The position numbers were made by a program, and so were the translations under genes. Positions 1 to 63,986 of a stretch of 64,000 bases of DNA are shown one piece after another (within the stretch, counting starts at the first letter, position 1; every line of letters begins with the position of its first letter). The DNA is taken from the NCBI GenBank assembly GCA_002118135.1, contig BDIU01000103.1:310001-374000 (forward strand). Reading direction: 5' to 3'. The notes beneath the pieces were generated by a model that saw only the letters and a list, made by a program, of their open reading frames with translations, was not told the DNA's origin and did not search any database. This DNA comes from Trebouxia sp. TZW2008 (lineage: Eukaryota; Chlorophyta; Trebouxiophyceae; Trebouxiales; Trebouxiaceae).

Positions 1-3000
1 ACACCATTGGCAACACCGTTGCTGTTGCTGATACCATAACCTCCGTTGACATTAGTCGTGCCATATCCACCCGCACTTGACACTCTGCTGCCGGCTGAGT
101 CATAGGTTGAGTCAGTGGCACTGCTACCCCAAGTGGGGTCAGTGTTGACCACCCTGACGGGTTCACTGGTAGCACCAATCAGCCCCCCCTCGCCCTTCAG
201 GACCCCCTGCATGGTGTCGAACACCTGCTTTGCGCTAGGGCGGCGGCTGACCTCCTTCTCTAGGCACTGCTGGATGAGTAGCTCAACTGCCTCTGGAGCT
301 TCCTCTGGCACCTACACCAAAAATAGTGCATGCTTGTAAGGATCGTGCCACACTGTAAGCACTGCCACTGTTCATGCTGAGTGTGCTGTGAGCTTGATAT
401 ACAGGATGACACAAGTACAGCACACATGTGCTGGTACGCGTAATCTTCTATTTATTAGTATTATTATTATTATTTTTACAAGTACATTGCTGAACTAATG
501 CCACACCGAACTTACATGCTTGAATGACTACTGTCAAAACCCAGCACAAGCACACATCACCTCCACAACTGAGCTCTGCTGGTGACACTCAAGTCTGACC
601 ATTCCATTTGGGTCATGTCAGTCAAGCTCAAAAGTATGCTCAACAGTTGCTTGACCGCCAACTTAATGCACCAGGCATACAGCAAAGGGATGGCAGAGCA
701 GCAGCATGAAAGCAGGCAATGCATCCGCATTGCCACTGCTGCAGCACCGTTCCTTTGCTTCATGCCTCCAGTCAAGACGCGGCACTTGGCACGCGTTTTC
801 AGTTTTCTGCCCACCAAACATCGCCTGGCACGAGGACATGAGCCAGCAAAACGCAGCATGGCAAGAAGAGCCAGCCTTTGGAAAATTTTACACAGCACAG
901 CGCTGAGAAGCATGCAGCGATCAGCGTGAAGCATTCACCATGCAGCACCCTTGTGCAGCCATCCAATGTGCAGCACTCAGCGCACGTTGCTCTATATGCA
1001 GCGTCCAATGTACGTCAGTCCATGTGAAGCATCCAGCAGGCAACATTGAGCATGAGGCCTACCTTGACAGGGCGCATGCGACCACGCTGTGGCACATCTG
1101 ATGTGACAAGCTCCCACAGCAGCACTCCCAGACTGTAAATATCCGCCTGAAGCAAAGCAGTCAGAATTCATGAGCGCCAGTGATAAATACACGCACAGGC
1201 TGCAATCAATTCCGCTTGCTGCATGGCATGACGTCACTGCAACAGCTGCAAGCCAGGACACGATGCAAGGGTCATCTGGCATGCATGTAGGCACATGTGA
1301 GCCCATTCCAGGCACAAGAACGCTTAGCTGCATTGCAATCTTAGCGAAACAACAGCCATAAGGGACACACTTGTGAGGTAGCAAAACCCATGTGTGATAA
1401 GGCAAAAGCACACCTTGTCATCCCACTTCTCTCCCATCAACATCTCAGGTGCGGCGTAGGCAAAGGTTCCTGCTGGGTCGCCAGTGGCGGTGTTGCTCAG
1501 AGTGTGCTGCATGATTCTGGCCAAACCAACATCAGCAATCTTAGCAGTCCCTGCATGCCAAACAAAGATTCTCAGCTTTGAGCATGGGCGTTGTTGCTCA
1601 GAGTCCGCTGCACACTTCTGACCAGACCAACATCTGAATTCTGGCAGTACAGTCATGCACAATACAGGCCCACAGACACTGGCAGATGCATCACACATGC
1701 TTGCCCAAATCAATGCAGCCATGATGATGAGGCATACGTATCGAGTTTTGTCTCATGTAAATTGCATACGTAGTAGTACGACTAATCAGTGATTTGCGGG
1801 CAGGCCATACGCCATGTGATGCATGACAGCAGAACGGTCTGAAGTGAAAATGTATGCAGCAGTTGCAATACCACAAGAGATTACTGTTCAAATCAGAAGA
1901 GGAGAGGCATACCTGCATTCTGTGTCAGAAGCACATTCTTGGCCTTCAGGTCAGCGTGCACAACCTTATTGCTGTGCAAGAAGACCAGTCCGCGGATGAT
2001 GTCAAGAGCAATTAAATGTCCCTTGCTGCAAGCACACAGCAGGCTGTCAGCGCCACAGCTGACTGCTCTTGTGAGTCTCACAAGCACGAGCACGTCTGTT
2101 ACAGCATGCCTCTTGCACTGTTCAGGCTGCAAGGCATTGCAAAAGCCTGGACATACACAGATCACAAAAGGCAATCAGATTGACAGAGTGACCACACGCA
2201 AGACAATAGCAGACTAGGGCAGGTTGCTGGGGTAGAGAAGGGGGTGAGACTGCTTACTTGTACCAGCTCAGTTCCTTGTTGATGTCAGTGGACAAAGCAT
2301 CCCTCAAATCTCCACCTGCACAAAAGGTCATGGTCAGAGTCCCAATTAGGGCTCAACACAATGCATTGAGATCTTGCCCGAGCAAGCAAGCAAACTGCAA
2401 GCTTGTGTGTTGCAAGACAGACATTGGCAATAGATTGTTCAGGGGTTAATGATGCTACTAGACTCAAGTCGGCCTGATGGACCTGCAGGAGCTGCACTCA
2501 TAGGCTAGCAACACAGCAAAGCAGGGCTCACCTTCCATGTACTCAAGAACCAGCATGGGAGCGGGTGCTGACAGCACAGCTCCGTAAAATTGAACAATGT
2601 TTCTGTCAAATGATAGTTTCTCCATCAAGTTGATTTCCTGCATCATCAGACAGGCAAGCTCAAGTGCTTTCAACAAGTCTGGTCACAATATACATGCTTG
2701 CAAAGCTCAAGCACTCGTTTGGCCAAGTCTGTGAAATTGCAGCCTTGAGCGCCACAAAACACCAGGATCTTTGCAAATGCAAAGTTCAGCAAGAAACAGC
2801 AAAATATACCTTGATGAACTGGGTCATCTGCCAATCATCAGCCTGTGTGATCTTCTTGACAGCCACTGGCTGCACACCTTGGCGCAATGCTTTGTACACC
2901 TGCAGCAGCATTAATGGCTCGTCAGGATGCAAATCCACAAAGGAAACATCAGCAGCAGAGACATGAGGGCGCAAATATGCTTTTGGGTTGAGGCAGCAGC

Positions 3001-4475
3001 ACTTGAAGCACCAGCAGCAATGCACACATAGTTTTGGAAGGCAGCTGATGTGCGTCTGCAAATTGCCTGCTAGCTGTGAAGTCATGGCTGACAGTGTCAG
3101 CACATGATGGTACAGGCGTTCTGAAGCACAACTTGGTTCACACCCCACTTGCAGGTGAAGCACGTACCGTGCCAAAGCTGCCTGTACCAAGCAGGTAAGG
3201 CTTGCCAGATTCCAGCTGCAAGATCTCAATGTCCTTGGCGTCCATGACCCAGCCAGGCAATGCCTGAGCTGAGCTCAAGCTCGATGCAGAGGTGGCTGCA
3301 ATCACAACCAACAGGTTGAATGAATGACCTTGTAACCAACAACATTCTGATGCAAAATCCCTATGTCCTTCGCGCCCATAACCCAGCCAGGCGATGCGTG
3401 TGCTGAGCTCAAACTTGATGCAGAGGTGGCTGCAAACACAAGCAAGATTTTGCATAATTAATCTTGTAGAAATCAATGTTTGTTTGCAAGATTCGAAGGT
3501 CTTTGGCATGCATAACCCAGCTCGGCAAGGCCCAGGCTGAGCTCAAGCTTGATGCAAAAGTGACTGCAGTCACAAGCAAGGGCTCACATACAGGCATAGC
3601 TGACTCGGGAGCGACTTCAAGTTGCAACGGCTTGCAAACCAAGATGTGGGTGTTGTCGCTATACAGCGAGCATGCTATGCGGGCAATGATATAACTTTGC
3701 ATGCTGGGCAATCACAAGTGTCAGGATTGCCGGGTGCAGATCCCTGACAAACCCAGATAGACGAGCGTGCAAACATTGTTGCATTTGAGAACACTATGGC
3801 TGAGATGACACTCACGAATCAGGCATGAGGTTCCATCGACATCATTGCAGCAAAATCACAATTTGTACAACAAGAGGCAGAACAGGCTTCTGTCATATGC
3901 ATGTCAGTCAAGATACGCAGATCATCAGCAGGTGACACATGCTGACACTTCCATGCGCTGACTAAATGATGCTTTCTTTGGTGATGCAAAGTTGTGTGAT
4001 GGAAAGGGAAGTACCAGATGATGAGGAGCTGCCAGTGCTGCTGCCACCCTTGTTTTTCAGCTGCAGGGCAGCTGCTAGCTTCTCTAGTGGTGTGGATTTC
4101 TCAACATCACCTCTGCCTCTTCTTGCAGCAAGGATGCGCTGCCTCCTCTTATACCAATACTTGAACATGTAGAACATACCTAAGCAACAGCAGCGCGAGT
4201 TGGTTGCAGGCTGTTGCAGCTGACTGAGCTAAGTGCTTTAGGTCATTGCTGAAGGTTCAGGTCAGCCTGCTGCTGTAGCGACTCACATGCTGTCTTGAGT
4301 ATAACGAAGACCACGCAACCAATCACAATGCCGGCGATAGCGCCCCCGCTGAGACCCATGCCAAGAGGGGGAGCGAATTGGCTTCAAGCCCGGGGAGGGG
4401 TACGACTCGGAGCCTGCAAGGCTAGGCTAACCTGCAAGACATGGTAGATGTCATGGGTACAAGCGCCATGCGCAT
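1..4475 (-). CDS. Receptor-like Ser/Thr kinase (TKL/RAF-like), C-terminus cut by window edge
   Basis: Single-pass membrane kinase read right to left. The exons join in phase: transmembrane exon (4381 down to about 4290, IAGIVIGCVVFVIL), then a basic juxtamembrane segment (KYWYKRRQRIL) and a Ser-rich linker (about 4180-4010). The kinase exons are 3295-3168 (glycine loop GTGSFGT), 2899-2810 (VAVKKI, the ATP lysine), 2637-2532 (LVLEYMEG hinge), 2315-2258, 2025-1913 (catalytic loop HADLKAKN), 1550-1414 (DVG in place of DFG, then APEML), 1146-1063 (DIYSLGVLLWEL) and 311-1 (C-lobe end plus a Gly/Ser/Asn-rich tail). HAD replaces HRD, so this is a non-RD kinase, a class often tied to immune-type receptors in plants; DVG for DFG is also unusual. 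Mg-binding Asp and catalytic Asp are both present. A 50-nt intron (4382-4431) precedes the transmembrane exon. The first in-frame ATG seen is at 4475, giving a very short ectodomain; upstream exons are possible, so the start is uncertain. Confidence 0.85.
1580..1645 (-). repeat. Exon echo of the kinase activation-loop exon
   Basis: About 100 bp upstream (in gene sense) of the DVG exon lies a decayed second copy reading DVGLVRSVQRTLSNN, against DVGLARIMQHTLSNT in the real exon. It lacks the APE part and has no place in the reading frame. Confidence 0.65.
3237..3575 (-). repeat. Exon echoes of the kinase glycine-loop exon (3 copies)
   Basis: The start of the glycine-loop exon (SSLSSAQALPGWVMDAKD, 3295 downward) is repeated at about 3425-3365 and 3570-3500. 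The copies keep the Ser-rich start, the P-x-WVM-x-AKD core and the upstream acceptor-like context. The middle copy is out of frame (…WLGYGREGH…); the outer copy is open (PSWVMHAKDLRI). Spacing is about 130-150 bp. Only the innermost copy continues into the ATP-binding loop, so the others are intronic relics. Confidence 0.75.
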
Positions 4476-6552: not shown

Positions 6553-9500
6553 ATGACTCTCATCGACTTCTTCAAAGTTTTCATAAAAGTGTCTGCTTTA
6601 CCAACCGTAGGCGCATCTGCGCCAAGATGCGTGCCGTACACGGCTGCAATTCAGCAGGACCCCGCTGCTCAGCTCAACTCGGCCCCTGCAATTGAGTCTG
6701 AAGGTGTGGAAGTCTCTGCTTGATTGAATGATGCGCTCGACACATTCCATGGTACGCTTACGACAGCATGTGTGTTTGACAGGCAGCACTCTCAAGTCAT
6801 GATGCTCCTGTTACAAAGCCAGCACCTACCAGGTTGCAGGTGAACACGGCTGTGCAAACATAACACCATTCTTGACAACTTTGATGCTGACAGTGTCACA
6901 CATGACTCATGATCTGGTCATGCCTCACGAACAGCTTGCACTGCTGCAGACGCTTCATGCTGCTGTTGCAGCCAATCTTCCAGTTTTTGTGTTTCATCCA
7001 GATGAGAGGTAGGAGTACTCGCTTGTGTACTGCTTGTTGGTGATCTGAAGCAGCTGAGTGTGAAGCAACTCAGTGCCTTGACTTGCCACAATCCATGCTT
7101 TGAATTTTATGAAAGCAACACCTGCACTGTGGCGCTGCAACATGGCATCTCGACATCAGCATGTTTCAAACGCAGCGCACTGTCATGTCGCGACGGCCAC
7201 TGGCCGTTAAGTTTGTGAATGCAATAAATGCATTGTGCCCCTCAAAAATTGCATGAAAGCACTTAGCATGCCAAAACTGCAGGTACTGGCCATGCACCGT
7301 GGAGTGGTTCCTGCAACGCTGTGAGTTGCGTCTTATCAAGAAAGGCTGGAAGCGGCGCCTTCTGAAAGGTCAGTGCATTCCAAATTTTGAGCATCGCCAA
7401 GGACCATTGCACAAAGAAAACTTTGGTTGATTGTGGTGCATAAGAGCCAAATGTGCTTTGCAAACACATCCTGTGTCTGGTGCGTGTCAAGACGGCTGTT
7501 GGAGTGCTGTGTAAAGGTCAGTGCATTGCAAATCTCAAGCTTCTCACGAGGGTCAGTGCTTCATGGAACTTGGGTTTTTGTGGTGCATTTCGTCGTGCTT
7601 TGCAAACACAGCCTCTTGTTGGCATGTGCCAAGACAGCTGCTGTAGTGTAACGCAAAATCTAGTGCAACCCCAACCACTGCCGACCCCAAGGTGATTCAT
7701 GTATCATTGCACAAAGGGAATGCTTCATGAATCATTCTCTTTGTGTGACGCATAGCAGCCAGACATGCTTTTTGGCTACTTCCTGTGCGGCACCTGTCAA
7801 CACGGCTGATGCAGTGCTGTGCAAAGCTCAGTGCATTCCCAAACTCCAGTACTTTCATTATGATTGATGTTCTATTGCACAACAGAAACTTTGAATTATG
7901 GTGCACAAGAGCTGCATGTGCTTTTGGAAAATGGCCTGAGTCTGGCATATGTCAATACAGCTGTTACAGTGCTGTGCAGGCAGGGAGAAATTGATGGCAA
8001 TACCCTGCAAAAGGCACAGAAAAGCTTTAGTGATGATCCTGACAACAAAAAGAAGCTGATGCAGCTGTTTCTGGACCCTGCTGCTAGAGCAGGCCAAGCA
8101 GAGGCTATTGATCAGGTATAGTCAATGGTGCGGCAGGATTGCACCCAGACCCAACATGTCTTGACGAGCACTGTCACAGAGGTCAGGCACAAGGGTCAAA
8201 TGTAACACATTCAGTTGCATTCTTGTAAGATGCCAATGCTGCACAGCAACATGGCTTTGGTCACGAAACAGGTTAAGCTGCTGATATATGCTGACATTGC
8301 TTCAGGTTCCTATATATGCCCATGTCAAGGAGATTGTCAGCCCGCAAGGCAGGGTAGAGGCTGTGGACATCAATTACATGAAATTCTTGGCCTTCAATGG
8401 GTCATACAAGGTGCTCAGCTGCACCTAGCATTGCCTTCTGTCATGTGTCACTACTGTGCCATCAGTTGCATCAGTTGCAAAGGTTTCTGTTTGTTGTGTT
8501 TATGCAGTACCCCTCAGTGTTGCACGATGCTTCACAAGGTACTGTGGCTGAGTGAGACATGTTTTGAAGCTGAGACACTAGCTGGACTTGCGTTGCTGAA
8601 TGCACAAAACTTAAACTCTGTACCTAGCAACACCGCTGAAGTGAAGCTTTCACCAGTCCATTGAGTGCTGCTTTCATTGGTGCAGCTTGGCATGTGGTTC
8701 TGTCCACCCCAGCAATTAATGCCTTTGCAGGCACAAAAGCTCATACAAGCTGGAGTTGACTTGATTAAGATGTTTGCTGCTCTTTGACTGCAGATGGGGG
8801 CAACCTTTTTTGTTGTGTTCTACTGGATGGACCTTCTCTTAGCCGCATACGCATTGAAACCGTACTGTCATGCTGGCATGTACTGGCATGTTTGACTGGG
8901 ATCTTGATTGGTGATGGGAAAGTCATTGCGGAGACCTCCTTTTGTGCTGTTGTGCAGCTGTTTGACCAGTCTGGTATTGACGAAGGTGCATGTGTGTTGA
9001 CGATCTGAAATTGCGTTGTGAAGCTGTTTGACTGGATCTACATTGGAGAGGTGGGAGCTCACGACGGAGACTGGGAGCATGTCACGCTTAGGCTAACTTC
9101 TGACGCCTCACAGGTGCTGGGCATCTACTTCAGCGCACACAGGTACATTTCATTAGACCAGCCTATACTAGAGCGCACTCTTACTCAGCGCCTGCACAGA
9201 TGGGCTCCCAACGGCAGCTTTTGCCAAGAATGTGTAGTTTGCCACACCTTGTTTTGACTTCTGCTACGCCTGTAGTCAAGCAGCTATGTGTCAAACTTTG
9301 TTGCAAGTCAGGTATCAACCTCTGCTGCACGATTTGCCTTGGCAGAAGCCATGCCTTGGCAACTGAGTGTGGGACAACTTATGCAGTTACAGTCATCTAC
9401 AGCATACATCTTGAAACGTACCAGCATCTGTGTGCACCAAGATGTGATGTAAAACTCACCAGATGTGAAGCCTTGGCAATGCTGAAAGCACCGGCTGAGC

Positions 9501-12500
9501 ATGTGTTGCAATGCATGCATCCTTGTCTGCAGGCATCAGAATGCAATACACGATGCTGAAAGCATGTCTTGAAGTCAAAGTTTCAAAACGGATCATTCTC
9601 TGCAGGCACAGGGATGGGATTTGCGTGTCAGGATGAGATGCCGCGGACCCCAGAGGGGCGCCCCCTCAGCTATATTGCCCTCAATGGCCATGGCAGCTAC
9701 TCCAGCGCTGCCTTCATTCTCAGAATCCTCCTGGCTGTGAACGCCCACAATCGCAGCAGAGAAATGCTGACTGCAAAATTTGGCATGCAGGCACAGGGAT
9801 GGCATCTGGGTGTCAGCAGATGAGATGCCTCGGACCCCAGAGGGGCGCCCCCTCAGCTACATTGCCCTCAATGGCCATGGCAGCTACTCCAGGGCTACCT
9901 TTATTGCCAGAATCCTCCTGGCTGTTAACCTCCCCAATCGCAGCAGAGAAATACTGATTGCAAAGTTTGGCATGCAGGCACCGAGATGGCATCTGGGTGT
10001 CAGCAGATGAGATGCCTCGGACCCCAGAGGGGCGCCCCCTCAGCTACATTGCCCTCAATGGCCATGGCAGCTACCCTAGGGCCGCCTTCATTCCCAGAAT
10101 CTTTTTGGCTTTCAATGACCGCACTGGCAAAGGTCTGCACACAGTTTGCTTTTGAAAGCTACGCCACTCCTGATCTCAGCAATCAAGAATGTGCCTGCAA
10201 AGCTGTACACACACCTTTAGTTGTACAGAGACTATGCATGCAGGCGTGTGCAGTCAGCAGCTTGGCATGCCTGCTGATGTTGTAGCAGCTGCTGCATCAC
10301 GGTATCTATGCCCTTAGTGATTGCTAAACTTGAGCTCAAACTATTTCTGCCAGTCAATATTTTGCATCAGCACAGGTCTAGATACATCTCAAGCAGTGTG
10401 TTCACTATTTGCTGAGATCATTACTCAAGACATTGCTGCATTGACAGCTGGCACTGGGTGTCAAAGTGAAGATATATGGCATGCATACCAATTTAGCAGC
10501 AAGAAAGCTTGCATGGTATGGGCATGCCTGCAGAATGTCAGGCCGTAAAGTGCGCCAACTTTTGCTTGGTGGTGTTTGGCAACAATATGACCCAGAAATG
10601 TACTGTCCATAAGGTGATGCTGCCAAACACCACCAAACAACATCACTGTGAGCGATTTCCTGTCTAGCAAAGCTCCAAACACTCCAAGTCAACTCTAAAA
10701 GAGCTGAAATGACCTTGTGTCCTGTGGGTCTCAATATGTCAGATTACTTCATATATAGCACTTGCCTTGCAGCACAACAGCACAAGAGTTCTCAACGGGA
10801 TCTGACTGGTGACAGGGGCATCGATATGGTCCTCCCCAGAGTTGACACTTTGGGACAATATTCAGAAATGACAAGCGCTTTCGAAACATATTGACCAGCT
10901 GCTCATAGCAGATGCCAGCTCATATCAGCAAAACAAGTTTGTCAAAGCTAATGTCTCACTTTATGTGGGGTTGCAGGGCGGGTGTGGGACCCCAAGCAGT
11001 GCACATTGGTCACCCCAGATGACGTCCCACAAGTCACAAGCAGAGGCAGCGAACTCAATGGCTCCTCCTACCCCTCAGGTCTGCAGCCTCCCGCCCCCCT
11101 GCACCGCTCTTTACTCTTCCCCAGGGGCTTAGCGATGCTGTGTCACGCTCACACCTGTTGCTGCTGAACAGGTCGCAGTCAGTTGCAGGTGCAAACGTTG
11201 GACAGGCTGTCCTTGCCCTCAAGATTGAGGCTGGTGTGTCATGTTCGCACTTGCTGTTGTTGAACAGGCTTGCAATACTTGAACTTCATCCTGCACTGTC
11301 ATGCTTGCGCTTGTTGTTATTGGACAGGGTCGCATGTTTTGAACTTGATGCTGCTGTGCAACACTTGCACTTCTTGTGTCTTTCACAATCGTGTAACTCC
11401 TGGCATGCACTTCATGCTTCTGTGTCATACTTGCACTCACTGCAAAACAGCCTGGAACTCCTTGCATTCAGCGCTGCTGCTTTATGCTTGAACTTTTACT
11501 AGTAGATTGCCTTGCACACAATGGTGTATGTCCCGTTGGAGTTTGTCATCGTTTGTTTTCGTGCTATTTTGTCAAGTGACAGTCTTCTGCAGCAGGACAC
11601 TCGGCACAGCACAGTTGCAGTGTGCAGTTGAGGCGGGATACAGCACCCTGGCTGGCATACCAAGGCAGGTGGCGCAGGTTTGTAGAAGCCCCTGCCGTGT
11701 GGAACCAGGCCAGGGCTTGGGACTCCATCTTCCTGATGACCATGAGGCCTTTCTACAACAGTTCCAATTTATTTTTGTTATCTCCTAACCTTTTTTATCT
11801 TATCTGCTTTCCATGTGCCCTTTGACATGTAGGGCACCTGCTACGCTACAGCACCAGTGTGCAATGGAGGCAGGATTCGACACCATGAGCTGATTGCCGC
11901 TGTACACAAACTAGATTGCAGCGTCTTCTGACGTTTCTGGTATGCTCTGCTCACCATTTGCGTTTTCACGTGCAGAACACTTGACACAGCACAGCTATGG
12001 CGTGCAACTATTGCAGCTTGCGTCGTCTTTGCTAGCTTTCGAGGGCAGGTGGGCCAGCACTGTAGAAGCTCCTGCTCAGCAAGAGTGGTTTGCCAGGGCT
12101 GAAACCCTCGATTGTAGTCTCATTTTCTGAAAATTTCCAACATGTAGGACACTTGGAAAAGCACAGCAGCGTACAATTGAGACAGGATGCGGCGCCTTGG
12201 CTAGCTTTCCAGGGCAAGTGGGGCAGCACTGTAGAAGCTCCTGCCCTGCAGGAATGGTTTGCCAGGGCTGAAAACCCTGTATCCAGATCCTGGCTTGCAC
12301 AGGTCAGCGGCAAAGCTCAGTTCTTTGCACTTAGTTCTGTGGGTTTTGTACGCTGTGATGCAAAGCACCATGTTTCCTTTGCTCCTACATTTTGTCCAGC
12401 GTCCTAGCAAACTGACAAGGTTTCGGAGTTTCAGGGGTTTGCAAATTCCAGCACCCCAGACCTGGCAGCTGATTTTGTGAAGTCTGTGTAACACTGGACA

Positions 12501-13509
12501 GTAAGTCTGCTTGTCATTTGGCCTAATTAGAGCTGTAGCTGCTCTGCACGGTCACCTGTGCGGTGTTCATGTTTGTCTTTGTTAATTGAACAGAGTCGAA
12601 CTCGTACTTACACTGATACAATCTTGGTGCAGTACTTGTACTTGTTCTTTGGCTGCGCCTGTACAGTGCATTCTATGCATATCGAGCTGCGTAGTAGTTT
12701 GTTGTGGTTGCACAACAGCATGGTGGACGGGTTGCAGTGTCAAAATTAGGGTGTAGCTGTCAATATGTGTGAAGGCACCCAAGTTGGCATCAACTGTGAT
12801 CAAATGATTTGCATATGCAGGTGTTCTTCCCATTAGCTCCAGGCATAGAGTCAATCTGGGAGCCACTGCAAGAGGAGGTAGAAGCACGGCTTCAGGAAGC
12901 GCAGCGCCAATTTGATGAAGTTGTTGAAGGTGAGGGCATTGCTTTGGCAATGAGCTTGTCTTGTGCTGCTATACATCTCTTGAAGAAGTGTGATCTAGTT
13001 GGCAAGCGGGCATGCCGGTTTCTGCTACTACAACGCGGCTTGTGTTGCCGACTATCTGAGCTGACAGACACACTACAATGCTGGGAAAGGTTGCTTTCCT
13101 GCCTGCAACATATCGCTGTTCAAGGTGATCCGGTTTGCTTGCTGTACATTGGCATGATGCCGAGCTGCAGGTTGCATTCACAATGAGCACTTGTGCGGCG
13201 GCCTTGCAATCAACAAAGCTATGCTGCTAGGTTATGACATTGTGCTGGAAGACACTGTAATGCTTTTGTGTTGTAGCATTTTGTCTGCAGTACAATTGTA
13301 AGCTAAGTATTTGCAAGCACTACATCCATCCATGCTGCCTGTATCAAGACATACTTCTGAGTGTGACTGCAGACACGCGAGAGACAGCTGATGAGCTTCA
13401 ACAGGAAATTGAGTCATTACAAAAGCGCATGACCACAGCATCCGGCCATATGAAGCAGATGCTTAAAGACAAGTTGCATCAGCTTTTACGTCAGAAAGAC
13501 AAGTCTTGA
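6553..13509 (+). CDS. VPS62-family (plant DUF946-like) protein
   Basis: Exons that chain in phase: 6553-6703, 6894-7008 (VFVFHPDER), 7283-7368 (YWPCTVEWFLQRCELR), about 7988-8115, 8306-8410 (DINYMKFLAFNGSYK), 9024-9142 (GAHDGDWEHVTLRL), 9978-10132 (YIALNGHGSY, then NDRTGKG), 10977-11078 (RVWDPKQ), 12148-12302 (PWLAFQGKWGS), 12821-12929 and 13373-13509. These blocks follow the order of the VPS62/DUF946 family: FHPDE, the W-F-L-Q block, D-I-x-Y…FNG, H-x-GDWEH, ALNGH-x-SY, and the W-x-FQG-x-WG block. The family is named for a yeast vacuolar protein sorting gene; its biochemistry is poorly known. The C-terminus is a short coiled coil (ELQQEIESLQKRM) ending in QKDKS. The first exon and the junction at 7368/7988 are the least certain; that acceptor is weak. 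Five of its exons have echo copies. Confidence 0.82.
7427..7980 (+). repeat. Intronic tandem array, four copies of about 155 bp (VPS62 gene)
   Basis: Units start near 7427, 7575, 7735 and 7890. They share TGGTGCA…GTGCTTT-GCAAACAC, …GTGTCAAGACGGCTGTT and GTGCTGTG-AAAGG-CAGTGCATT. The last unit runs into the acceptor region of the exon at about 7988, so the array is made of copies of the pre-exon segment. Confidence 0.75.
8885..9050 (+). repeat. Three short echoes of the VPS62 GDWEH exon start
   Basis: CTGTTTGAC…(T)ATTG-GA-G segments recur at about 8888, 8958 and 9024 (spacing about 65-70 bp). The third is the real exon start (LFDWIYIGE). The first two are followed by non-homologous sequence and stops. 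Confidence 0.65.
9606..10132 (+). repeat. Triplicated VPS62 exon (RTPEGRPLSYIALNGHGSY)
   Basis: Near-full exon copies start at 9606, 9791 and 9978, each after a CAG acceptor, spaced 185 and 187 bp. All encode MPRTPEGRPLSYIALNGHGSY. Copy 1 lacks 2 nt where copies 2 and 3 read TCAGCAGATGAG, which shifts its frame. Copies 1 and 2 lose homology before the NDRTGKG end and its donor. Only copy 3 fits both flanking phases. High identity suggests recent duplication. Confidence 0.9.
11596..12302 (+). repeat. Four copies of the VPS62 W-x-FQG-x-WG exon
   Basis: Copies begin at 11596, 11833, 11976 and 12148. Copy 1 is open (APWLAYQGRW…FVEAPA) and has a usable acceptor; copy 2 is short and decayed; copy 3 is frame-broken early but keeps LAFEGRWASTVEAPA; copy 4 (APWLAFQGKWGSTVEAPA) fits the upstream phase and ends at a GT donor that fits the next exon. 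I take copy 4 as the real exon; copy 1 could be an alternative. Confidence 0.8.
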
Positions 13510-14341
13510 CACCATGCCAGTGGCTGTATACATTTGGCTTTTGGCTATGGCTGCTTTCGTTTTCAACAAGTTCACTATGACAACAGCATCACGCCATGTC
13601 AAGCAGATGCTGTCAGACAAGCTGCATCAGCTTTTGCACCAGAAGAGCAAGTCTTGATGTCTTACATGCTGGTGGCTGTGTGTGTGTTCATACTTGGCCA
13701 TGGCTGCTTCCAATTTCAACAAGTTAGCTGCTTTTGTCAAGCAGATGCTGTCAGACCAGTTGCATCAGCTTTTGTGTCAGAAGGACACCTCTTGATGGTT
13801 TACATGCTATTGGCCATAGTTGCTTTCAGTTTGAGACTCAATGGCCATTTCAACATGACGCTGTGACAGCCCAATGTGTGAATCAGCAGCATGCAACATG
13901 ACATGAATGTTTTGCAGCTGACTGTATATGTGGCTAGTTGCCCTTTATGTGTGGCACTGCAGCAGGCGTGGGCGTTTGCAAGTCAGTATAAGATTTTCCA
14001 TGTACACCGACCAACAACATCTTGTGAATGCTGGCTAGTATACCTCAACAACGTCAGGTCATACGCTGGGCAGACCTATGCAACTTAGGCTCAACAGATG
14101 CAAGTTTGCAGGATTGCGTAACCTCTACTGGCCTTTAATCTTGGCCTATATTGCTGCAAGCTTATCTATCAAGGTGGGGGATGCTCCAGCGACATGTGTT
14201 GTGCTGAGATCCAGACAACATGCTGCAACTAACTACACTGCAAGATGCCAACAGACGCAGATACATGCCACACAAAACTGCAACTCACTGCTGAGCTGGC
14301 TCTAGGTACAGTTGCAGGACCACAAAGCGGGTAGACAGCAA
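13510..14341. other. Convergent intergenic region (VPS62 gene / MTR4)
   Basis: This holds the 3' ends of two convergent genes. Apart from the two terminal-exon echoes at 13580-13800 I see no coding evidence. Confidence 0.5.
13580..13800 (+). repeat. Two echoes of the VPS62 terminal exon, beyond the stop codon
   Basis: The end of the last exon (ATGAAGCAGATGCT…AAGTCTTGA, to 13509) is repeated at about 13588-13659 and 13735-13796, each including the TGA. Spacing is about 140-150 bp. These lie in the 3' flank, so the duplications are not confined to introns. Confidence 0.85.
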
Positions 14342-41600: not shown

Positions 41601-43247
41601 AAACCTCACAGCTGCCAAATTGTACTGTACCTGAGTTCAATCTGCAACTGTTGTTTAGCCCCACAGGTGCTGCAACAATGATGTGCTGATGTTCTGCCAG
41701 CTTGGCATGCTGAGACAGTAGTTGCTGTGACGCGCACATCACTGACGATAGTACAGCATATGCACTGAACCTGCCTGTTGTCACACTTATTGGCAGTCAA
41801 GCTGTATTGCACCTGACTGACGCCTGCAAATGGTGTTTGGTCCCCAAAGCATTGCAACAACAAGACTGTTTGTCAGTAAGTCAGCTTGGTATGCTGAGAC
41901 TCTAGTGACCACATTGGTGAAATCGTTGACGCTAGTACAGCATAAACACTGAAATTGCTTGCATTTTTGGGCACGGGCCGCCAAGCTTTAGGCACCTGAC
42001 TGAAATTTGCAAATGGTGTTGTGTCTCATCAGCATTGCAACAGTGATTTGCTGGTGTTCTGGAGGCTCGACATGCTGAGTTGCAGTGGCCGTTTCTGCAA
42101 CATTGTTCACTCTGGTGTAGCCTGAGCTAAACAAACCTGCACTGCCAAGTCATGTGGCATTTCTCTGAGATCTGCAATCAGTGTTTAGCCCCACAAGGAT
42201 TGCAACAACTATGTGCTATTGTTCTGCCAGCTTGATATGCTGAGGGTCTAGCAGCTGTCTTTGCAACATCATTCACTCTGGTACAACATACTGCCAGAGC
42301 GAATGATGTGACCAAGACACAACGCTAGAGTCATGGCACACGCTGTTGGTCAAGCACACCATTTGTCACACACACAGCAAGGCACTGGCACAAGACTGGG
42401 CAATTTGCCAGGTCGCAATCCTGTACCCTTCTCTACATTCATCACTGCAATGCAATGATGTTACACGTGCCTTAGCAACTGTGGTCGTCTGCTCATGCTG
42501 TGCTTCTTTCATCCATCTGAACTGTAATCATTTGCATTCAGAGGAGAGCAATGCATTTAGAGGAAAGCAACGTATGCTTGAATGTACAGTGCTTTCTCTT
42601 TGCGACAAGGGCTTGCGGTTTTCAAGCAAATTGTCCTGACCTCAATTGGCCCTTACTTGGCAGCATTACTGCAGTCAGGCTGCAGTGATTGGGTTGCATT
42701 GTCCTTGCAGCATGAATGTGTTTATACTGACTAACCAGGAGGACTCATCGTACTCTTTCATGGCTCAGGATAAAGTCACAGTACTATAATACTTGGTACT
42801 CATTCACTACATGCGCACATTTGGAACGCCATGTGCAAGCTATTTTTGAGGTTTGCAAACATGCATGACTTTCTGTTCCATGCACTGCAGAGCTATACAA
42901 TCAGAATGCAGTAAGTGATTCCCAGTTGCATTGTCCTTACATCATCAACATATTCATGTCAAGTGCTCTGAATAGGCAAGACTTCTGTACTGCAGAGCTA
43001 TGAGAGGACAGGTGGCATGAGCCAATTTGCTGTTGACCCTGACAGCAACAAGGCGTTCATCCACTGGGAGTCTAAAGGCAAGCTTGGTGATAGCAGCCCA
43101 TTGGGTGTCTCCTTATACGGCATCAACATGCTCATTTTTGACAGCTTTGGCTTGATCGAGACTGTGGTGGGCTTCAGACAGCCACTGCCCAAGGAAAGAG
43201 TGAAGTATCTGAAGAAGGTCCCTGAAAAGGCTGGGGCTACAGTTTAG
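38675..43247 (+). CDS. Plastid-type protein with two NTF2/SnoaL-like domains
   Basis: Seven exons (38675-38824, 38911-39276, 39550-39625, 40292-40380, 40776-40911, 41271-41389, 42996-43247) join in phase to 395 residues. Residues 1-65 are rich in Ser, Ala and Arg with almost no acids (MAFTLSSVHST…FASGRRFAQK…CSRLVVKA), typical of an algal plastid transit peptide. Domain 1 (about 80-200) has VAEKMDAFFASSD, ADKVKSTLQTYTSAF, FHFWLHQ and WRYVVGDDGKVTDIYFLTQ. Domain 2 (about 215-395) has LADDILSKKFKEIAPIFGS, VDKFKSTIDGLY, FIHWESKGK and GLIETVVGFRQPL. The matched positions (DKVKST/DKFKST; the W after F/H) show an internal duplication of one cone-shaped NTF2-like fold. Such folds bind small ligands or act as scaffolds; no catalytic residue can be named. 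Introns 3 and 6 hold tandem arrays. Confidence 0.85.
39670..40235 (+). repeat. Degenerate tandem array in NTF2-like gene intron 3
   Basis: A unit of about 110-120 bp containing AAGCTGCTGTACAGCTGCA…CATTCAAAGCTC…TCAGT recurs about four times (for example near 39855, 39930, 40005, 40205). It is strongly decayed; no exon of origin recognised. Confidence 0.6.
41640..42330 (+). repeat. Four tandem copies of about 180 bp in NTF2-like gene intron 6
   Basis: Units begin near 41640, 41824, 42003 and 42170. They share TCTGCAA-TG-TGTTTAGCCCCACA, GCAACAA-GATGTGCTG-TGTTCTGCCAGCTTG-CATGCTGAG and TA-TACAGCAT. Confidence 0.85.
42885..42930 (+). repeat. Echo of the NTF2-like terminal exon start
   Basis: CACTGCAG|AGCTATACAATCAGAATGCAG precedes the real CTGTACTGCAG|AGCTATGAGAGGAC by about 110 bp; only the acceptor and about 10 nt of exon are kept. 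Confidence 0.5.
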
Positions 43248-48121: not shown

Positions 48122-48124
48122 ATA

Positions 48125-48540: not shown

Positions 48541-51500
48541 CGTCTGCTGTCACGGTGCCAGGCAGTGCACCAGCTGCCTCAAGGGGATTATTGGTGGCAG
48601 GCAAAAGGCCATCTGGCAGCGCTTCAGTGGCATGCCCTGCTGGGAAATTGCAAGACGTGTTGGTCAGGGGTTCTTGCAAAGTGAACAAGCCAGGAATGTG
48701 GCAGACTGACCCAGATGCAGATGGCTTTGGCAGGCTGGACAATGCCGACGCGGTTTGCGGGACAACACAGGCTAGGCAGTGTGGATTGAGAAAACATTTG
48801 CAGGCATTGCTGGGTCATGGCTCTGAATCAAGCTGAGGCTTAGTCTTCAGAGCTTTCCTCAAGACCTAACCCTACACAGTCAGTGAGGCGCTGTGCAGCT
48901 ACACTGAATCTCAAAGTCAGATGCTCACATGCAAATGACACATGCAACAACTGCATTGTAACAGCAATACTTCTGATTAACACATGAGATTTGATCTGCC
49001 ACATGCATTGCATGTAAGTTTTCACCATGTATGTAAACACATATGCTGTGTTGTGCCTGTTGCTGCACAGTGCCAAAAGAATTTCACTTCTGAGCAGATG
49101 CAGCATGACGAAGAAAGTGCAGCGTAGATAGACAGACAGACAGCCACACAGACGGACAGGCAAGCACGCAGACCAGCCAGCAACACAAACAGCTTGCCAT
49201 CCAGCAACAGGCAAGCACATGTGCGCACCTGATATTGAAGGGTGCAAGCTTGCCATGACATCCTGATTCAATGCCATCAGCTGCTGTGGCACTGAAAGCT
49301 CTGTGACATCAGAAATGGACACAGCACTGCTGCCATAGGCACTGCTAGGGGCAATACTGGCATGGGCAGACGGCTGGCGGGTGCTTGGCTGGCTGGCTGA
49401 TGCAGCTCGGCTGCTGACTGCTGCGTCCTGCTTGATGCGCCAGTAGGATTCAGCATCATCTGCCTCATTGCCTGCAACACGTCACTCAATTTTGTGAGAA
49501 ATTACAGCTTGAAGCAGTCACGAGTGGCAAAGTGAGCAAGTTGGCTGACATGTGCTTGGTTGGCTGGCTGATGCTGCTCAGCTTTAGCTTGCTTCTTCCC
49601 CTTTCATGCAACCATTTTGTCTGCCTCACTGCCTGCCAAACATCACTTGACTTGAGACAAGTACACACAGTGCCTTGCAGGCAGCGCACTGCTTCTGTAC
49701 GCAGCTAGCAGAGTCATAACAGCTCACTGCAATGCATGTGAGGATTCTGCATCATCTGCCAGATTGCCTGCCATACAACACTTGAATTGACACAAGCCCG
49801 TACTACTTGAGGCAACTTACTGCTTCTGTATGCACCTTCTGTCAGGGTGCCATGATGTCGGAGAGCACATTGCAGCATGTAGTGCAATCAGTACACACTG
49901 CAACTGGGAGGAGTGTCGCGCACAGGAAAGAGGTTGTGATGCTGCAAGCAGTACGTGCTGCAGCTCATTCAATTCTGACTCACCTATGTAAGCGCTAGGA
50001 GGGTTGTTACGCACAGCAATTGCTGTGAAGCATACTCGTCATGACATGTGGCAGTGTCAAGTCATCAAAGCAGTGCTGCGGCCATTACCTGCCGGATCTC
50101 TCTTACAAACTTCTGGTGCTGACCTGTGAATGTGCTGGGAGGGTTGTTGTGCACGCTATGGTGCTGTGACGCTGCAGAGGATATGCATCAAGCTGCTGCT
50201 GCAAGCAGTACATGCTGCAGCTCCTTCAGTTCTGACTCACCTGTGTAAGCGCTAGGAGGATCGTTACACACAGCAATGGTACCATGTTGCTGTAGAGCGT
50301 ACTCGGCACGATATGTGGCAGTGTCAAGTCATCAAAGCAGTGCTGCGGCCATTACCTGCCGGGTCTCTCTTACAAACTTCTGGTGCTGACCTGTGAATGT
50401 GCTGAGAGGGTTGTTGTGCACGCTATGGTGCCGTGACGCTGCAGAGGATATGCATCAAGCTGCTGCTGCAAGCCGTACATGCTGCAGCTCCTTCAGTTCT
50501 GACTCACCTGTGTAAGTGCTAGGGGGTTTGTTACGCACAGCAACGGTGCCATGATGCTCCAAAGCATACTTATCATAGGCCTGCCCTGCTTCCTCCTCTT
50601 CTTGGAAGCTACCGATGAGGTGTGAACCGCCTTCAGGCTTCTTGAATCTGGCCTGCCACCTCTGGCTCTGCCTGTGCCAGCTGACGCCCAGGAAATGGGA
50701 GTAGCGCGGTTTTGACATGTCCACAGACCTGCAAAAAAAAAGTTTTGTTTCGTTTACCACCAATTATTTGCAACAAGAACTGCAGTTGCAACAAGCAGTT
50801 TGTGTCAATCTGCTTCATTTGCTTATGATACTGCCTGTGCCAGCTGATACCCAAGAAATGGGAGTGGCACAATTTCATGTGACCACAGACCTGCATAATA
50901 ACAATTCTAGTCCAACCCTTTTTGCTCGTTTGTGGCTCTGTCTGTGCCAGCTGATACTCAAGAGATGGGAGTAACACGGTTTTGATGTGTACACAGACCT
51001 ACAAAACAACGACATTATTGCAGTTGTCCACACATGTCAACCGTCTTCAGGCTTCTTGAATCTGGCCTGCCACTTCTGGCTCTGCCTGTGCCAGCTGACA
51101 CCCAAGAAATGGGAGTAGCAAGGCTTGGATGTGCCCACAGACCTGCAAAACAAGCGCTCAATTTCAACCCCATTTCATTTGCTTCTGGCTGTGTCTTTGC
51201 CACCTGATGCCAAGGTAATGGGAGTAGTGTGGTTCTGATGTGTTCATGGACCTGCAGAACAAGATTGTCATTTGACTTGTCAACATCCATTTGCAATCAC
51301 AACCCCGTTTCAACCTGTATCATCCGCTTCTGGCTCTGCCTGTGCCAGCTGACTCCCACAAAATGGGAGTAGCGTGCTGTCAATGTGTCCACGGACCTGT
51401 GAAACGGATCAGCTCACGCAAAGATCAGCCTTTGAAAACCTGGCCTGCCACTTCTGGCTCTGCCTGTGCCAGCTTACAAGCAAGAAACGAGAGTAGAGCG

Positions 51501-54500
51501 GATTTGATTTGTCCACAGACCTGTCAATGGTTGAGATTGCTTGATTCCAGTCCGCTCTTCCATGCTTGTCATATGCACACAAGTGTTGGAATCCATTTTT
51601 GGGTGCGTGTAGCATCATTCAGCTTTCACTATGTGACTCTATGCTTGACCATGTCAGTTGACTCATATGAGGGGCTAGGAGCAGCAAAGCAAGCACATAA
51701 CTTATGGTGCTTTGTCCAGACACGTGTAGCTATGCTTCTGATGTTGCAACAGCAGTCAAGTGAGTGCGCATGCACTCCCAGCACTTCCACCACAAGCTGA
51801 CATGACATGGATCCATCCACCCAAACAGGTGCATTTGCAGCATTTGAGGCAACCAGTCACAATCTAGCTTGATGCTCACTGCGGCTTTCTGCAGGCGGCA
51901 ATGCCAGGCGATCTATTGACATTGGGCATGTAAGACCCTACTGCTGCTTAACGCAGCAAAGCAGCTAACAGACAGAGTGTTGTCACAGCAACAGCAGCAG
52001 CCAGAGACTGGTGGCTACTAGGTTGGGGGTACCTGGCAGTGGCGGCACGCTTCTTGGTGGGGAGCCCCCTTTCCTGTGCTTTAAGGGCAGAGCCTGCAGC
52101 CCTGGCGGCGCCCTGCAATGCATAAGGCAGCTTTATGCATTTCTGTTTGTAAAGATTGCTTTGTTTACTAAGAAAATGGTCGCATTGTCCTTATTCTGAG
52201 GCTTCACTGCAGGCAAACCCTAAAGCTATCAAATGCAATTGCATTGCCCCTACAACAAAACTCTCTTTGCATCAATTGCCCTTACATGGACAAAATGTTC
52301 TATGGTAGTAGCCATTGAATTGACGCTTGACCCGCTTTTACACAGTGCTGCCAGAGTACCCAGTGCAGGCAGTGCGTGTGATGGACTTTGACCAATTATA
52401 ATAAAAAGCAAGGCACAGCAGCATCACCACTGAATCTTGCCTTGTCCATTGATGCAATGCAGCGTTACCTACTGTGCGGCCGCTTCCCTGGAAGAATTGA
52501 ATGGGCTCTTGGCCCGTTCCTTTGTCAACAACTTGCTGTCAGTCTGGCTACGGCAGCCTGATTGATTGACACAGCCAGCAATGCTGGGTGTTGCTCTCAC
52601 AAGCTGCAGATACATAACATGCACAGCCCGTGTCTGCAAGGGATAGTTGTCAAACTTCTTTCATTACCTGTTCCTCTTTGATGTAGTCTGCCAGCTGGGC
52701 AATGGTGACAGGCAACTCCTGGCTGGTGTAGTCAGCCGCAGGAAAGTTGAGCTCAGCCTCCCTCAGATTGCGCCTGAAGTCCCCTGTCAAGCGTGCCCTG
52801 TAACACATGCAAGTGTGACAGCATGCAGCAAAAGGCATTGCACTCAATTTGCGGTTGCACCAGCTTGCGAGGCGTGCCCTGTTCCACACGCCAGGGTGAC
52901 AGCGCTGAGCAGAAAGTCTCTTGCCTCAAAGTGGGCTTGGAGTTGCCCGTCAGGCATGCCCTGTGACACATGCATGTGAGGCATAATATGAGGCAGCAAA
53001 ACTGGATTTCTGGTAATGAGCTAGAGTCAGGCTGGGTTTTGCCTGTCAGTTTGCGCCAGACCGGTGCATCGATGGTGGGGCATGCAGGAGTGGGAGGCGT
53101 TGAAGGCGTGTGGGCCTAGGAGGGCTGCAGGTGTTTGCTGGTGAGGGGCTGATGGCGGAGGATTGCACCCTGTCAATTTCGCAAACAGGCAGTGTGCACA
53201 CCTTGCCACTCATGCAAACTAGCAGAGACTTGAACATGTGTCTGTCATGCTGCTCTGAGCCAGGTGCAGCAGTGCATGATTGATTCACACTCGATGCAAG
53301 GAGGAGGAGAGCCTGACTGTGTCTGTAACTCCTGCTTCAAGCCAGAATCCTTCGTGTGTTTTGCCCAACATGCATTGCCACACATTAGACACAGACAAGC
53401 AAACATGAGAACAGACAAAGGACAGATAGTGACTGACTTGTGAGTGATGCTGGCTGCAGCCAGGTTGAATTGACAACATTGCACAGCATTGGGACAACAG
53501 GATGTTGGACACAGTACAGGAAGACATGTGCAATGCAAAAAAGAGAGGCAGCCACTGACTTGTGGGCAATGCAGGCTGCAGCTAGGGCGAAAAAGCAGCA
53601 GCTTGGCCACAGTGCTTGAAGCATGTAGAGGCCATGCACTACAGGGTAGAGAGACAGTAACTGACTTGTCGGCAATGCGCGCGGCGGCTAGGGTTGAGGG
53701 CCAGTAGCCCAGGTGCAGGGGCTTCTTCGCCTCAGGGTTCCACAACATCACTGCAATCCTGCACACCCACAACCCAATTGAGCTGTGCTCTTGCAACATG
53801 TCTATGATGTATATGCGCCCACGATGCAACTCAGCTTCGTATCTGCAAGCTCCCATCACACATGCCATTGTAATCCACTTTCATTGACTCGGTTCTACAT
53901 CACCCAGAAGTATTGCACATGCTATATCCTAAGCTAGCTCTCTTCCTTTGATGTAGGCTAAGCAAGGATCTGCACGCACCTACCACCCGGCTTACAACCC
54001 GAGTCGATTATCTTCATACAAGGGCACCTAGACACTACTATACATGCGCGCACAACTCTATTCAGCTGTTTTCGTGTCATGTAACAACACCATGTCAGCC
54101 ACAATGATGCATGTGCAATTCAGCTGTACTTGACCAGGCATGGAATGCCACCCAAACCAAGATGCCACCATGTCGGCCACAACGATGCATGTGCAACTCC
54201 AACTGTACTTGACCACTTTCATGCCATTGCGAGCGTCAACAGAGACTTGCCTGCCGTTCTTGAGGGTGACTCCGCTGAACTCAATCAACTTGTCAGAACG
54301 CTTCCTGCCGCCCGGCACCGCCCGCCTGGCAGCCATCATCCTTGCATCAGCTGGCACACTTCTCTTCTTTGCGCTCTTCTCCACTTTCAGATTCCGCCTA
54401 GCCCTGCCACTGCACCAGAGCAAATGATTTGTTTAGGCACCATTGCACGTAGGTGTTATTGCATGTAGGCATCACTGCATGCAGTCATGATTGCATGCAG

Positions 54501-61572: not shown

Positions 61573-63986
61573 ATGGCGTTCACCAAGATTCGGTCAAGGG
61601 TGAGAAACAAGTTTCACTCACGGAACAAGCTTGACGGACAGTTGTCTGACGCCGACGAAACAATGAGCATCATGTCGGATGATTCCGTTGCAATGACAGC
61701 GGTACGTCTGTACAAACCCTCTCGTCTTCACGCCGTCTACACTCACCAGATGTCAGTAGAACCTAATCAGCCACTGGCTTCACATGTGACTGACAGGCAG
61801 ACAGCGACACCCTGTCTCGAGCCAGTTCCACTTCCACGGCGGACATATCAGTTCTGGCAGAGGAAAATGGCATGGCCAACCTTGCAGGCGACGAGGAAGC
61901 TGCAAGCTTTCGCTACATCAGACTGGTCATCTACTCTGCCAGAAATGTGCTCTGCAAGGACTACAGCGGTTTTAGCGACCCGTAAGCACTCTTGTCACTT
62001 TACTGCATATTGCACACCAGCAATGCTGCAGTGTTGAGTGATTGACATGGCTCAATGCAGGTATGTGGAAGCCAGGCTTGCTGACAATCGGATAAAAACA
62101 CGTGTCATCATGCAGACGTTCAATCCAGATTGGAATCAAGAGTAAGCCATACTTGCAGTACTGTCAATGCTTGAGCACATCGTGGCGCAAGCCAGCTATG
62201 TGAAACCTTGCTGCTGCACATGCTTTGCCTCGATAGTCATGACTTTGGTTGCACAGGTAATGTCAGATGCATCCCAAATTACATAAAAATCAAGGCCTTC
62301 GAACAAGTCAACTGCTGTGACACTGAGCTCAGCTGCTGCAAGGTTTACTGCAGGTTTGTACTGCAAATGGCCAAATCAGAGAACCCTTTGGATCATTTGC
62401 TGAAATTGGACATGTGGGATTATGATGGCATCAGAAGAGCACCAGACTTTTTGGGCCAGGTCAATGTGGACTTGACCAACCTGTATAACACAAACGCAGA
62501 TGTGAAAGCCACAGAGCAGACATGGTGCGCGGCACGCCACCTGCTGATTGTGCTTGCATGAGCATAGGACACACTACATGTGCATGCCTTTGTATTCTGA
62601 TGCGGGCAATACACAGGCTCCTGTTTTGGCAAACTTGAACACCAGAGCCTAGGAATTTAAAGCAAGAGCCTCAGCTTGCATATGTAAGTTACTCCTGCAA
62701 TGCACACTGCCTCTTGTGGATGAGACCCCTTCTTGTCGGAAATAGTTCTACAGGTGGCATCCCCCGGCCACCTGTAGAACTACTTGGTCAGATAGGATCC
62801 TGCTGCAACTATACTTATAGCTGCATTTACGCCAGCAGGCTGCGTCAGTGCGTGAAACCAGGCTTGCTTTGCGTGGCAGGTGCACATTGCAGAACAGACC
62901 CTGTCAGCAAAGAGCTGTGTGTTGTGGCAGTTACGCACTGCAAGACAGGCAAAATGCGTAAGTCTCAGCAAGGGAACACGTGTTGTGGCAGGTACCCACT
63001 GCAAGACCGGCCAAATGTGCAAGTATCAGCAGCGAATTTGGTTTCTGGCAGATACCCATTACAAGACAAGCCAAATGTGCAAATGTCAGCAGAAGTTTGT
63101 GTTTTGTGGCAGGTACCAACTGCAGGACACACCAAATGCGCTAGTCTCAGCAACAAACTATATTTTGTGGCAGGTACCCACTGCAAGACAGGCCAAATGT
63201 GCAAGTATCAGCAAGGAACCGCGTGAGGGGTGACCTGTGTCTGGGCATAGAGTTCATCAACTACGCCCAGGCACGCCAGCTAGAGGTGACTAAGGGGCAA
63301 GGCGGTGATGCTGGTAGCGTGGCCAAGTACAGCGAGTTTACTCTGACTGTCAAGGTTCACGGCACACGGGGCATGCTGCCTAAGCTCAAGTCTGGCATGA
63401 GGAAGGGTGTGTATGTGGAGTCAAGGTATGTTATGTTATGTGAATGTGTAGCTCTATAGGCATCTGTTTGCGGAGCACCTGAACAGCGCATGGATAGTGC
63501 ATACAACCCAAAGTGTTGATGCAAGCAGTGTCTTGCATCAATTCCATTCAGCAAGAGCAAGAGCAGAAAAGCGATGCTGACTATAGCAAATAAACAACAT
63601 CAAGCTGTCACATTTGGCATGACTGGCTCTGCCAGCGGCTTAGCATTGATGTACTAATGGTGGCAGCATCACATTGCGTGCAGATGGTTTCGGTATTGCT
63701 TGCATCTCATTGGGAGATGTCAAGCAGCTGTACTGCTGCTCTATATAGACTGCACAGCACAAGTGAATGCCTCTGGACCCTTTGTGGGAGGCTTTGACAG
63801 TGGACATCTACAAAGCTTTGGCCAAGGAGAAAAGCAATTTGCCCGCGTGAATGCTTCTGAATGTAGCCTGAATGATATTGCTGCATGCTTGTATTTGAAT
63901 CCTCACAACAAGAGTTCTGACGCATGGGATGCTGCCTGCAGGGTGGGCAGCTATGCCAAAAAGACCAAGAAGATTGCTGAGAAAAG
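61573..63986 (+). CDS. C2-domain protein, C-terminus beyond window edge
   Basis: Exons 61573-61701, 61797-61981, 62061-62141, 62354-62523, about 63172-63426 and about 63711-63986 can be chained in phase; the gene continues past 64000. The N-terminus is basic then Ser/Asp-rich (FTKIRSRVRNKFHSRNK; SDADETMSIMSDDS). A C2 domain follows: RYIRLVIYSARNVLCKDYSGFSDP, YVEARL, TFNPDWNQEF, LKLDMWDYDG, PDFLGQVNVDL and WYPLQDRPN. The Asp of D-Y-S-G-F-S-D-P and those of MWDYDG sit where C2 domains bind calcium, so Ca-dependent lipid binding is plausible. A second similar beta-strand block (SEFTLTVKVHGTRGM…KSGMRKGVYVES) suggests a second C2 domain. It may be a tethering or trafficking factor; I cannot name the family. 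The acceptor of the last exon is weak. Confidence 0.8.
62743..62782. repeat. Perfect 16-bp inverted repeat, 8-nt loop
   Basis: TAGTTCTACAGGTGGC and its exact reverse complement flank ATCCCCCG, inside an intron of the C2 gene. It would form a strong hairpin in DNA or pre-mRNA. Confidence 0.97.
62870..63171 (+). repeat. Five echoes of the C2-gene WYPLQDRPN exon start (about 58 bp each)
   Basis: Units near 62880 (weak), 62935, 62995, 63052 and 63112 precede the real exon at 63172. Each has TGTGGCAG|GTACCCACTGCAAGAC…AAATGTGCAAGT-TCAGCA, that is the acceptor plus codons for YPLQDRPNVQVSA. Only the last continues into GDLCLGIEFIN. Confidence 0.93.

Follow-up and report, generated by a model that had tools for sequence, protein, structure and literature searches.

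The 64,000-base window studied here, positions 310,001 to 374,000 of contig BDIU01000103.1 of the green alga Trebouxia sp. TZW2008, is part of a 68.5 Mb genome assembled in 527 contigs and holds genes whose introns contain tandem copies of the neighbouring exon edges. Such copies, hereafter called echoes, had been proposed from the letters of this DNA alone, and our analysis confirms that they are real and occur on both strands in the three genes with homology-based models, which encode a receptor-like protein kinase and an MTR4/DOB1 exosome RNA helicase on the minus strand and a VPS62-like protein on the plus strand (Table 1). The echoes probably arise from a genome-wide process of tandem duplication, with units of about 146 bases, that is largely blind to splicing, is filtered by selection and lengthens introns.

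Comparison of the window with itself gives 113 direct repeat pairs, all at most 2 kb apart, against 1 inverted pair. No direct pair appears in any of 10 shuffles of the window; in that comparison the real sequence has 4 inverted pairs, because self-complementary ones are allowed. Local direct repeats take up 14,108 of the 64,000 bases, and the copies are direct, adjacent and local, as in tandem segmental duplication. They look too decayed for breakpoints to be placed to the base, none of the arrays exceeding 98% identity.

Gene models were obtained by applying a spliced aligner to proteins of relatives against the window DNA. The kinase model is identical to protein P0127 at 420 of 421 residues with zero gaps, and its identity to P0128 is 85.9% over the aligned part. 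The VPS62-like model, from which exons upstream of 6797 were excluded as uncertain, agrees with P0121 at 307 of 403 residues (76.2%, aligned part); P0121 and P0124 are Trebouxia proteins with PF06101. For both genes the named best matches are Trebouxia proteins. The MTR4 model matches P0002 at 909 of 1,027 residues.

Echoes in these genes were counted with exon letters only, 60 bases per edge, and an echo was accepted if it scored above 100 shuffles and above the 39 remaining introns. An echo of at least one flanking edge is found in 16 of the 40 introns, at the acceptor edge in 15, at the donor edge in 5 and at both in 4; when the identical edges are set against reverse-complemented introns, 1 of 80 passes. 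The echoes are weak, with scores of 29 to 38, in four of the 16 introns (VPS62 intron 6 and MTR4 introns 8, 12 and 18). Both the self-comparison against shuffles and the alignment of introns to exon edges thus came out as the original prediction expected, and so did its observation that the copy nearest the exon is often the best preserved. Twelve edges have at least two echoes, and this order holds at 9 of them; the exceptions are the acceptor of MTR4 intron 6 and the donors of introns 9 and 14. The largest number of echoes per edge in the three genes is nine, at the donor edge of MTR4 exon 14, short of the predicted maximum of about eleven. Among the 20 arrays in these genes, 16 include a coding edge, 3 are purely intronic and 1 is ambiguous; the 16 include the stop-codon edge of VPS62 and one echo that starts 9 bases inside its exon. 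An exon edge is contained in 11 of the 13 MTR4 arrays. The echo of the VPS62 coding end is of an edge without a splice site, so splice edges are not the only ones echoed.

Introns with an echo have a median length of 788 bases (n = 16), compared with 267.5 for those without (n = 24; P = 1e-5), supporting the proposal that introns have been lengthened by tandem duplication across exon edges. The same proposal offered intron birth as a second possibility. In the AGGT model, tandem duplication of a coding segment creates the intron, and the introns here do hold tandem copies of coding sequence. However, its signature is nearly absent: two of the 40 introns, each with a margin of one point over the control, have a 5' end resembling the start of the downstream exon, and none of the 40 has a 3' end resembling the end of the upstream exon. 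Birth by this route is not supported, and we consider it very improbable for these introns.

The duplicated segments have a characteristic size. Over 84 arrays, the smallest spacing per array has a median of 146 bases, a mode of 140-160 and a 10-90% range of 89-209, with none below 60 and 5 arrays above 260; short-unit arrays exist as well, mostly beneath the detection of the spacing analysis. In the account we favour, segments of about 146 bases would be duplicated frequently, locally and head-to-tail, inside and outside predicted genes. Because such units are about as long as exons and not much shorter than introns, many of the duplications tolerated within genes would straddle an exon-intron boundary. 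Splicing would stay with whichever copy leaves the protein intact, its counterpart would turn into intron, and successive rounds would lengthen the intron further. As the source of the duplications, one might guess at paired-nick repair, or at replication slips on the scale of nucleosomes or Okazaki fragments.

Similar arrays occur elsewhere in the genome. A sample of 16 stretches on other contigs, 157,367 bases in total, contains 125 local direct pairs and 12 inverted pairs, with arrays in 15 of the 16 stretches and 0 direct pairs more than 3 kb apart within the 10-kb stretches. Array coverage is 11.0% overall, half of that in the window, and ranges from 0 to 45% per stretch. Two stretches, L010 and L021, consist of tandem duplicates to 37% and 45% and others are near zero, which indicates a patchy process. 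Genes in the sample were predicted with coding and splice models trained solely on the three window genes. On these training genes the finder places 33 to 36 of 43 exons exactly over eight settings and 32 to 33 over retraining rounds, figures that come from settings other than the exact one applied to the sample. An initial version without an acceptor cost over-predicted, worsened on retraining and was replaced. Of 117 predicted introns, 37 were dropped, the intron being shorter than 40 bases or a flanking exon shorter than 30, leaving 80. The echo rule for these was similar to that for the window, not identical (60 resampled sequences, at most 60 other introns and a score of at least 28). It finds an echo in 12 of the 80, at the donor edge in 8 and at the acceptor edge in 6; 0 of 160 reversed-edge controls pass. 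The donor-to-acceptor asymmetry of the window, 5 to 15, was dropped as a feature in view of these counts of 8 to 6.

Conserved gene families give further cases. Four families were searched; overlapping matches, which repeat a stretch of the family profile within 1.5 kb, were counted for HSP70 and chaperonin, and the AAA and DEAD tables were inspected by eye. HSP70 shows five overlapping pairs in 2 of 8 contig-strand groups with at least two matches, and chaperonin shows three in 3 of 11 groups, two of these overlaps spanning merely 21 and 26 residues. In the one HSP70 case read (L026), the start of an exon occurs three times at intervals of about 173 bases, with 89% identity. An exon start is also duplicated in an AAA gene (L025), FtsH-like by reading of its residues and chosen because its match table showed an overlap; the copy lies 191 bases upstream and is 84% identical. 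The exon-edge echo pattern is widespread in the genome, yet confined to a minority of introns; the suggestion that most introns of ordinary genes would look like this does not hold at 16 of 40 in the three genes and 12 of 80 in the sample.

The echoes differ from their exons by 2 to 24%, mostly 10-24%. Mismatches between echo and exon occur at rates of 0.132, 0.100 and 0.242 at codon positions 1, 2 and 3 (37 echoes in 12 introns), near the 1:1:2 expected for a free copy beside a conserved exon, and the exon's own changes, identified where at least two echoes agree against it, number 6, 5 and 24 at the three positions. Between echoes, the rates are 0.246, 0.167 and 0.266 (51 pairs, 36 of them from the exon 14 donor array). 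Seven of the echo differences would result in a stop in the exon frame. Of 16 acceptor echoes, 14 retain the AG, and 9 of the 11 donor echoes retain GT or GC, approximately what the decay of two bases at the measured rates would leave. From these patterns, we read the echoes as decaying non-coding copies beside a conserved exon.

Several observations weigh against splicing-blind duplication followed by free decay, and they are best considered with the alternatives they bear on. Array coverage in the window is 31.1% for the introns of the three genes, 28.4% for their exons and 15.3% for the sequence outside, a density twice as high within the genes. A coding edge lies in 16 of the 19 classifiable arrays, one of the 20 having been set aside as ambiguous, whereas blind placement, calculated on shortened ancestral introns and corrected for detection, predicts a share of 0.44, 0.51 or 0.59 depending on the assumed age (P < 0.001, 0.003 and 0.020). 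Furthermore, among echoes reaching to 6 bases or less from the junction, the outermost lose their likeness within 16 bases of it in 14 of 25 cases, compared with 18-28% in a simulation at the observed divergence with indel ratios of 0.03 to 0.15 (measured ratio, 0.08); inner echoes stop there in 11 of 15 cases, 6 of these 15 coming from one edge. In MTR4 intron 5, the final 66 bases include 37 that are collinear with coding sequence deeper in exon 6 (P = 0.005, uncorrected), as if the original exon start had become intronic when the acceptor shifted to a second one. The outermost copy in MTR4 intron 6 also extends along its exon (P = 0.009, uncorrected). Together with the spacing mode, such observations would be expected if duplications were directed to genes or exon edges, through nucleosomes positioned on exons with breaks in the linkers, or through CAG-type acceptor homologies acting as seeds. 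The sample tells rather against direction: its arrays cover 10.0% of predicted introns, 9.2% of predicted exons and 11.7% of the remainder, a class that is mixed because the finder surely misses genes, and predicted exon edges carry 17 of 50 arrays, a weak excess over the expected 12.6 (P = 0.063). The junction excess fades or vanishes, depending on the indel rate, when introns are allowed to diverge 1.6 times faster, and the test is not significant under faster intron decay or more indels; given this sensitivity of the simulation to divergence and indel rate, the lost intronic flank is a lead toward junction-bounded copying. That spacers between copies are the decayed remainder of the exon was rejected as a general rule: of 21 spacers scored, with 2 longer than 200 bases excluded, 3 match at P < 0.05, uncorrected, including that of MTR4 intron 10, which matches the exon remainder at P = 0.000 yet out of register, and in the rest no such signal is seen, or it is out of register or has decayed too far. 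We therefore regard directed duplication as possible, though doubtful. A specific form of it, in which every round duplicates a stretch of exon about one nucleosome long together with its splice signal, with breakpoints at exon edges, seems to us distinctly unlikely; if it were true, the spliceosome would shift to the copy that keeps the protein, introns would grow outward from exons, and intron length would be a record of chromatin-guided duplication.

Other observations bear on whether the copies are alternative or mutually exclusive exons. Without the exon 14 donor array, echo-echo mismatches are 0.185, 0.165 and 0.292 by codon position, not flat, and the ratio of nonsynonymous to synonymous differences amounts to 0.37 of that under neutrality, a little below the value of about 0.5 predicted for a free copy. 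The residual excess at position 3 fits an exon copied at different times, and there may have been some past constraint. Acceptor scores average 5.7 bits for inner echoes (n = 7), 2.3 for outermost echoes (n = 11) and 2.8 for real acceptors (n = 40), against -4.1 for other intronic AG; echo acceptors score like real ones, and the cell must therefore choose between look-alike sites. A long open frame also crosses echoes at 20112-20930. However, the differences between echo and exon fit a free copy, most copies have only one exon edge, and multiples of three are not clearly favoured among the best-pair spacings of the 84 arrays, 34 of which are divisible by three while 22 leave a remainder of 1 and 28 a remainder of 2. 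Coding constraint on the copies, as expected of duplicated alternative exons, was not found, a result that is weaker once the exon 14 donor array is omitted. In addition, the near-identical protein P0127 (462 residues) omits the kinase echoes, and is presumably derived from transcripts because its longest source contig, at 1,894 bases, is far below the length of the kinase gene. We judge functional exons to be very improbable. The age of the copies is a further difficulty for the favoured account: the best identity is 80-90% in 53 of the 84 arrays, at least 90% in 6 and above 98% in none, whereas under a steady, ongoing process young copies should be no fewer than old ones, so that the process has slowed or the assembly has merged the young ones. 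Merging is plausible because the only N run of the window, at 20440-20452 just upstream of MTR4 exon 14, sits within a tandem array. The same run could hint that the arrays themselves are artefacts of mis-joined reads or haplotypes, but mis-joined reads of one genome would hardly produce 2 to 24% divergence that depends on codon position, and we hold this to be extremely unlikely.

Several known processes resemble what we observe. Intron gain by tandem genomic duplication is reportedly a subject of Hellsten 2011 and of Gao and Lynch 2009. It is described in a review (PMC3443670) and a potato case (PMC4974935) as a local tandem duplication of coding sequence whose extra copy becomes intronic, much as here. 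In the present case, by contrast, existing introns are lengthened repeatedly, and the birth signature was not found in the 40 introns. Patch-mediated repair in rice is said to have been described by Vaughn and Bennetzen 2014. Small tandem duplications from break repair involving Pol alpha-primase/CST likewise copy short segments locally and head-to-tail, according to PMC8355091. The duplications reported here are known from sequence alone, have spacings that peak near 146 bases and are old. Introners (PMC9860276) also change the intron content of many genes, by inserting copies of themselves. In our case, three array stretches searched against the 68.5 Mb genome matched nothing outside their own locus, in a search that skips very common words. 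Minisatellites and short satellite arrays are likewise tandem arrays that grow and decay; here the unit derives from adjacent sequence, often coding, and is spaced mostly by 90-210 bases. The parts of the open-licence literature covered yielded no account of exon-edge arrays from the nuclear genome of a green alga, and the word 'tandem' does not occur in the main text of the Trebouxia A48 genome paper (PMC12712428). The echoes are probably a variant of these known tandem-duplication processes, possibly with targeting to genes or exon edges.

The usual explanations of intron lengthening are transposons and small indels. Duplication of nearby sequence that takes in exon edges is a different source of intron length, and one whose individual copies can be read, as in the housekeeping genes MTR4 and HSP70. 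The conserved exon provides a built-in reference for dating each copy, and the acceptor-like decoys next to real acceptors form a natural experiment on the choice of splice sites by the spliceosome.

Beyond the three modelled genes, the predicted pattern stands in part. Arrays are present at the AP2-like exon and in the putative C2 gene, with exon edges read from open frames in both; the AP2 match, at 26.2 bits, is under the Pfam cut-off of 33.3 bits, and the C2 label is that of the original prediction. The C2 array has CAG in 5 of 6 aligned rows on the plus strand. For the NTF2-like gene named in the prediction the pattern is not confirmed; the one array found there (41629-42282) lies in a predicted gene.

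Table 1 Genes and exon-edge arrays of the window (coordinates in bases of the window; spacing in bases)
Feature	Coordinates	Strand	Remarks
Receptor-like protein kinase gene	3..4359	-	10 exons modelled, 9 introns; continues past window start; gap-free spliced alignment to P0127
Kinase exon 8 start, one echo (from exon base 10)	1486..1642	-	Spacing 101
Kinase exon 3 acceptor edge (79 exon bases) and two upstream echoes	3217..3580	-	Spacing 134
VPS62-like gene	6797..13509	+	12 reliable exons from 6797, stop 13507-13509; spliced alignment to P0121 and P0124
VPS62 exon 8 acceptor edge and two upstream echoes	9601..10129	+	Spacing 185-187; best pair 91% identical
VPS62 exon 10 acceptor edge and two echoes	11594..12276	+	
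VPS62 coding end with stop codon and 3' flank, two downstream echoes	13429..13814	+	Edge without splice site
MTR4/DOB1 exosome RNA helicase gene	14345..31535	-	21 exons, 20 introns; spliced alignment to P0002; PDB and Pfam matches
MTR4 exon 16 acceptor-edge echoes (2)	17540..17891	-	Spacing 131
MTR4 exon 15 acceptor-edge echoes (2)	18235..18609	-	Spacing 146
MTR4 exon 14 donor-edge array	18694..20317	-	9 echoes across intron 14
MTR4 exon 14 acceptor-edge array	20300..21016	-	3 echoes; contains the only N run of the window (20440-20452)
MTR4 exon 12 acceptor-edge echoes (2)	22158..22579	-	
MTR4 exon 11 donor-edge echo	22666..23174	-	
MTR4 exon 11 acceptor-edge echo	23206..23359	-	Spacing 112
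Purely intronic array in MTR4	23459..23902	-	Smallest spacing 90
MTR4 exon 10 acceptor-edge array	24507..25173	-	1 echo in exon-only count; more copies in self-comparison
MTR4 exon 9 donor-edge echoes (2)	25964..26409	-	
MTR4 exon 7 acceptor-edge echoes (3)	27860..28300	-	
MTR4 exon 6, echoed on both sides	28636..29667	-	Donor edge at lower, acceptor edge at higher coordinates
Arrays flanking AP2-like exon (~50557-50697)	49937..51527	-	Repeated open-frame text; exon edges from open frames
Five 61-base units in putative C2 gene	62902..63225	+	Exon edge from open frames

The open frame at 20112-20930 has 272 codons on the minus strand and passes through the copies of the MTR4 exon 14 start and through the N run; arrays such as the one holding this run may mark sites where the assembly breaks or collapses. 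No array was detected between 29.7 and 41.6 kb of the window, a stretch that holds domain matches to MT-A70 (~32380-32935, plus strand) and peroxidase (34934-35143, minus strand). An array at 7365-7976 is nearly coextensive with VPS62 intron 4 (7369-7969), including just 4 and 7 exon bases. Short minisatellites adjoin larger arrays at 54434-54698 (17 copies of a 16-base unit) and 22617-22762 (14-base unit). Two of the 20 MTR4 introns, 5 and 9, have GC donors in place of GT, at 30041 and 26343, and both donor echoes of intron 9 start with GC too.

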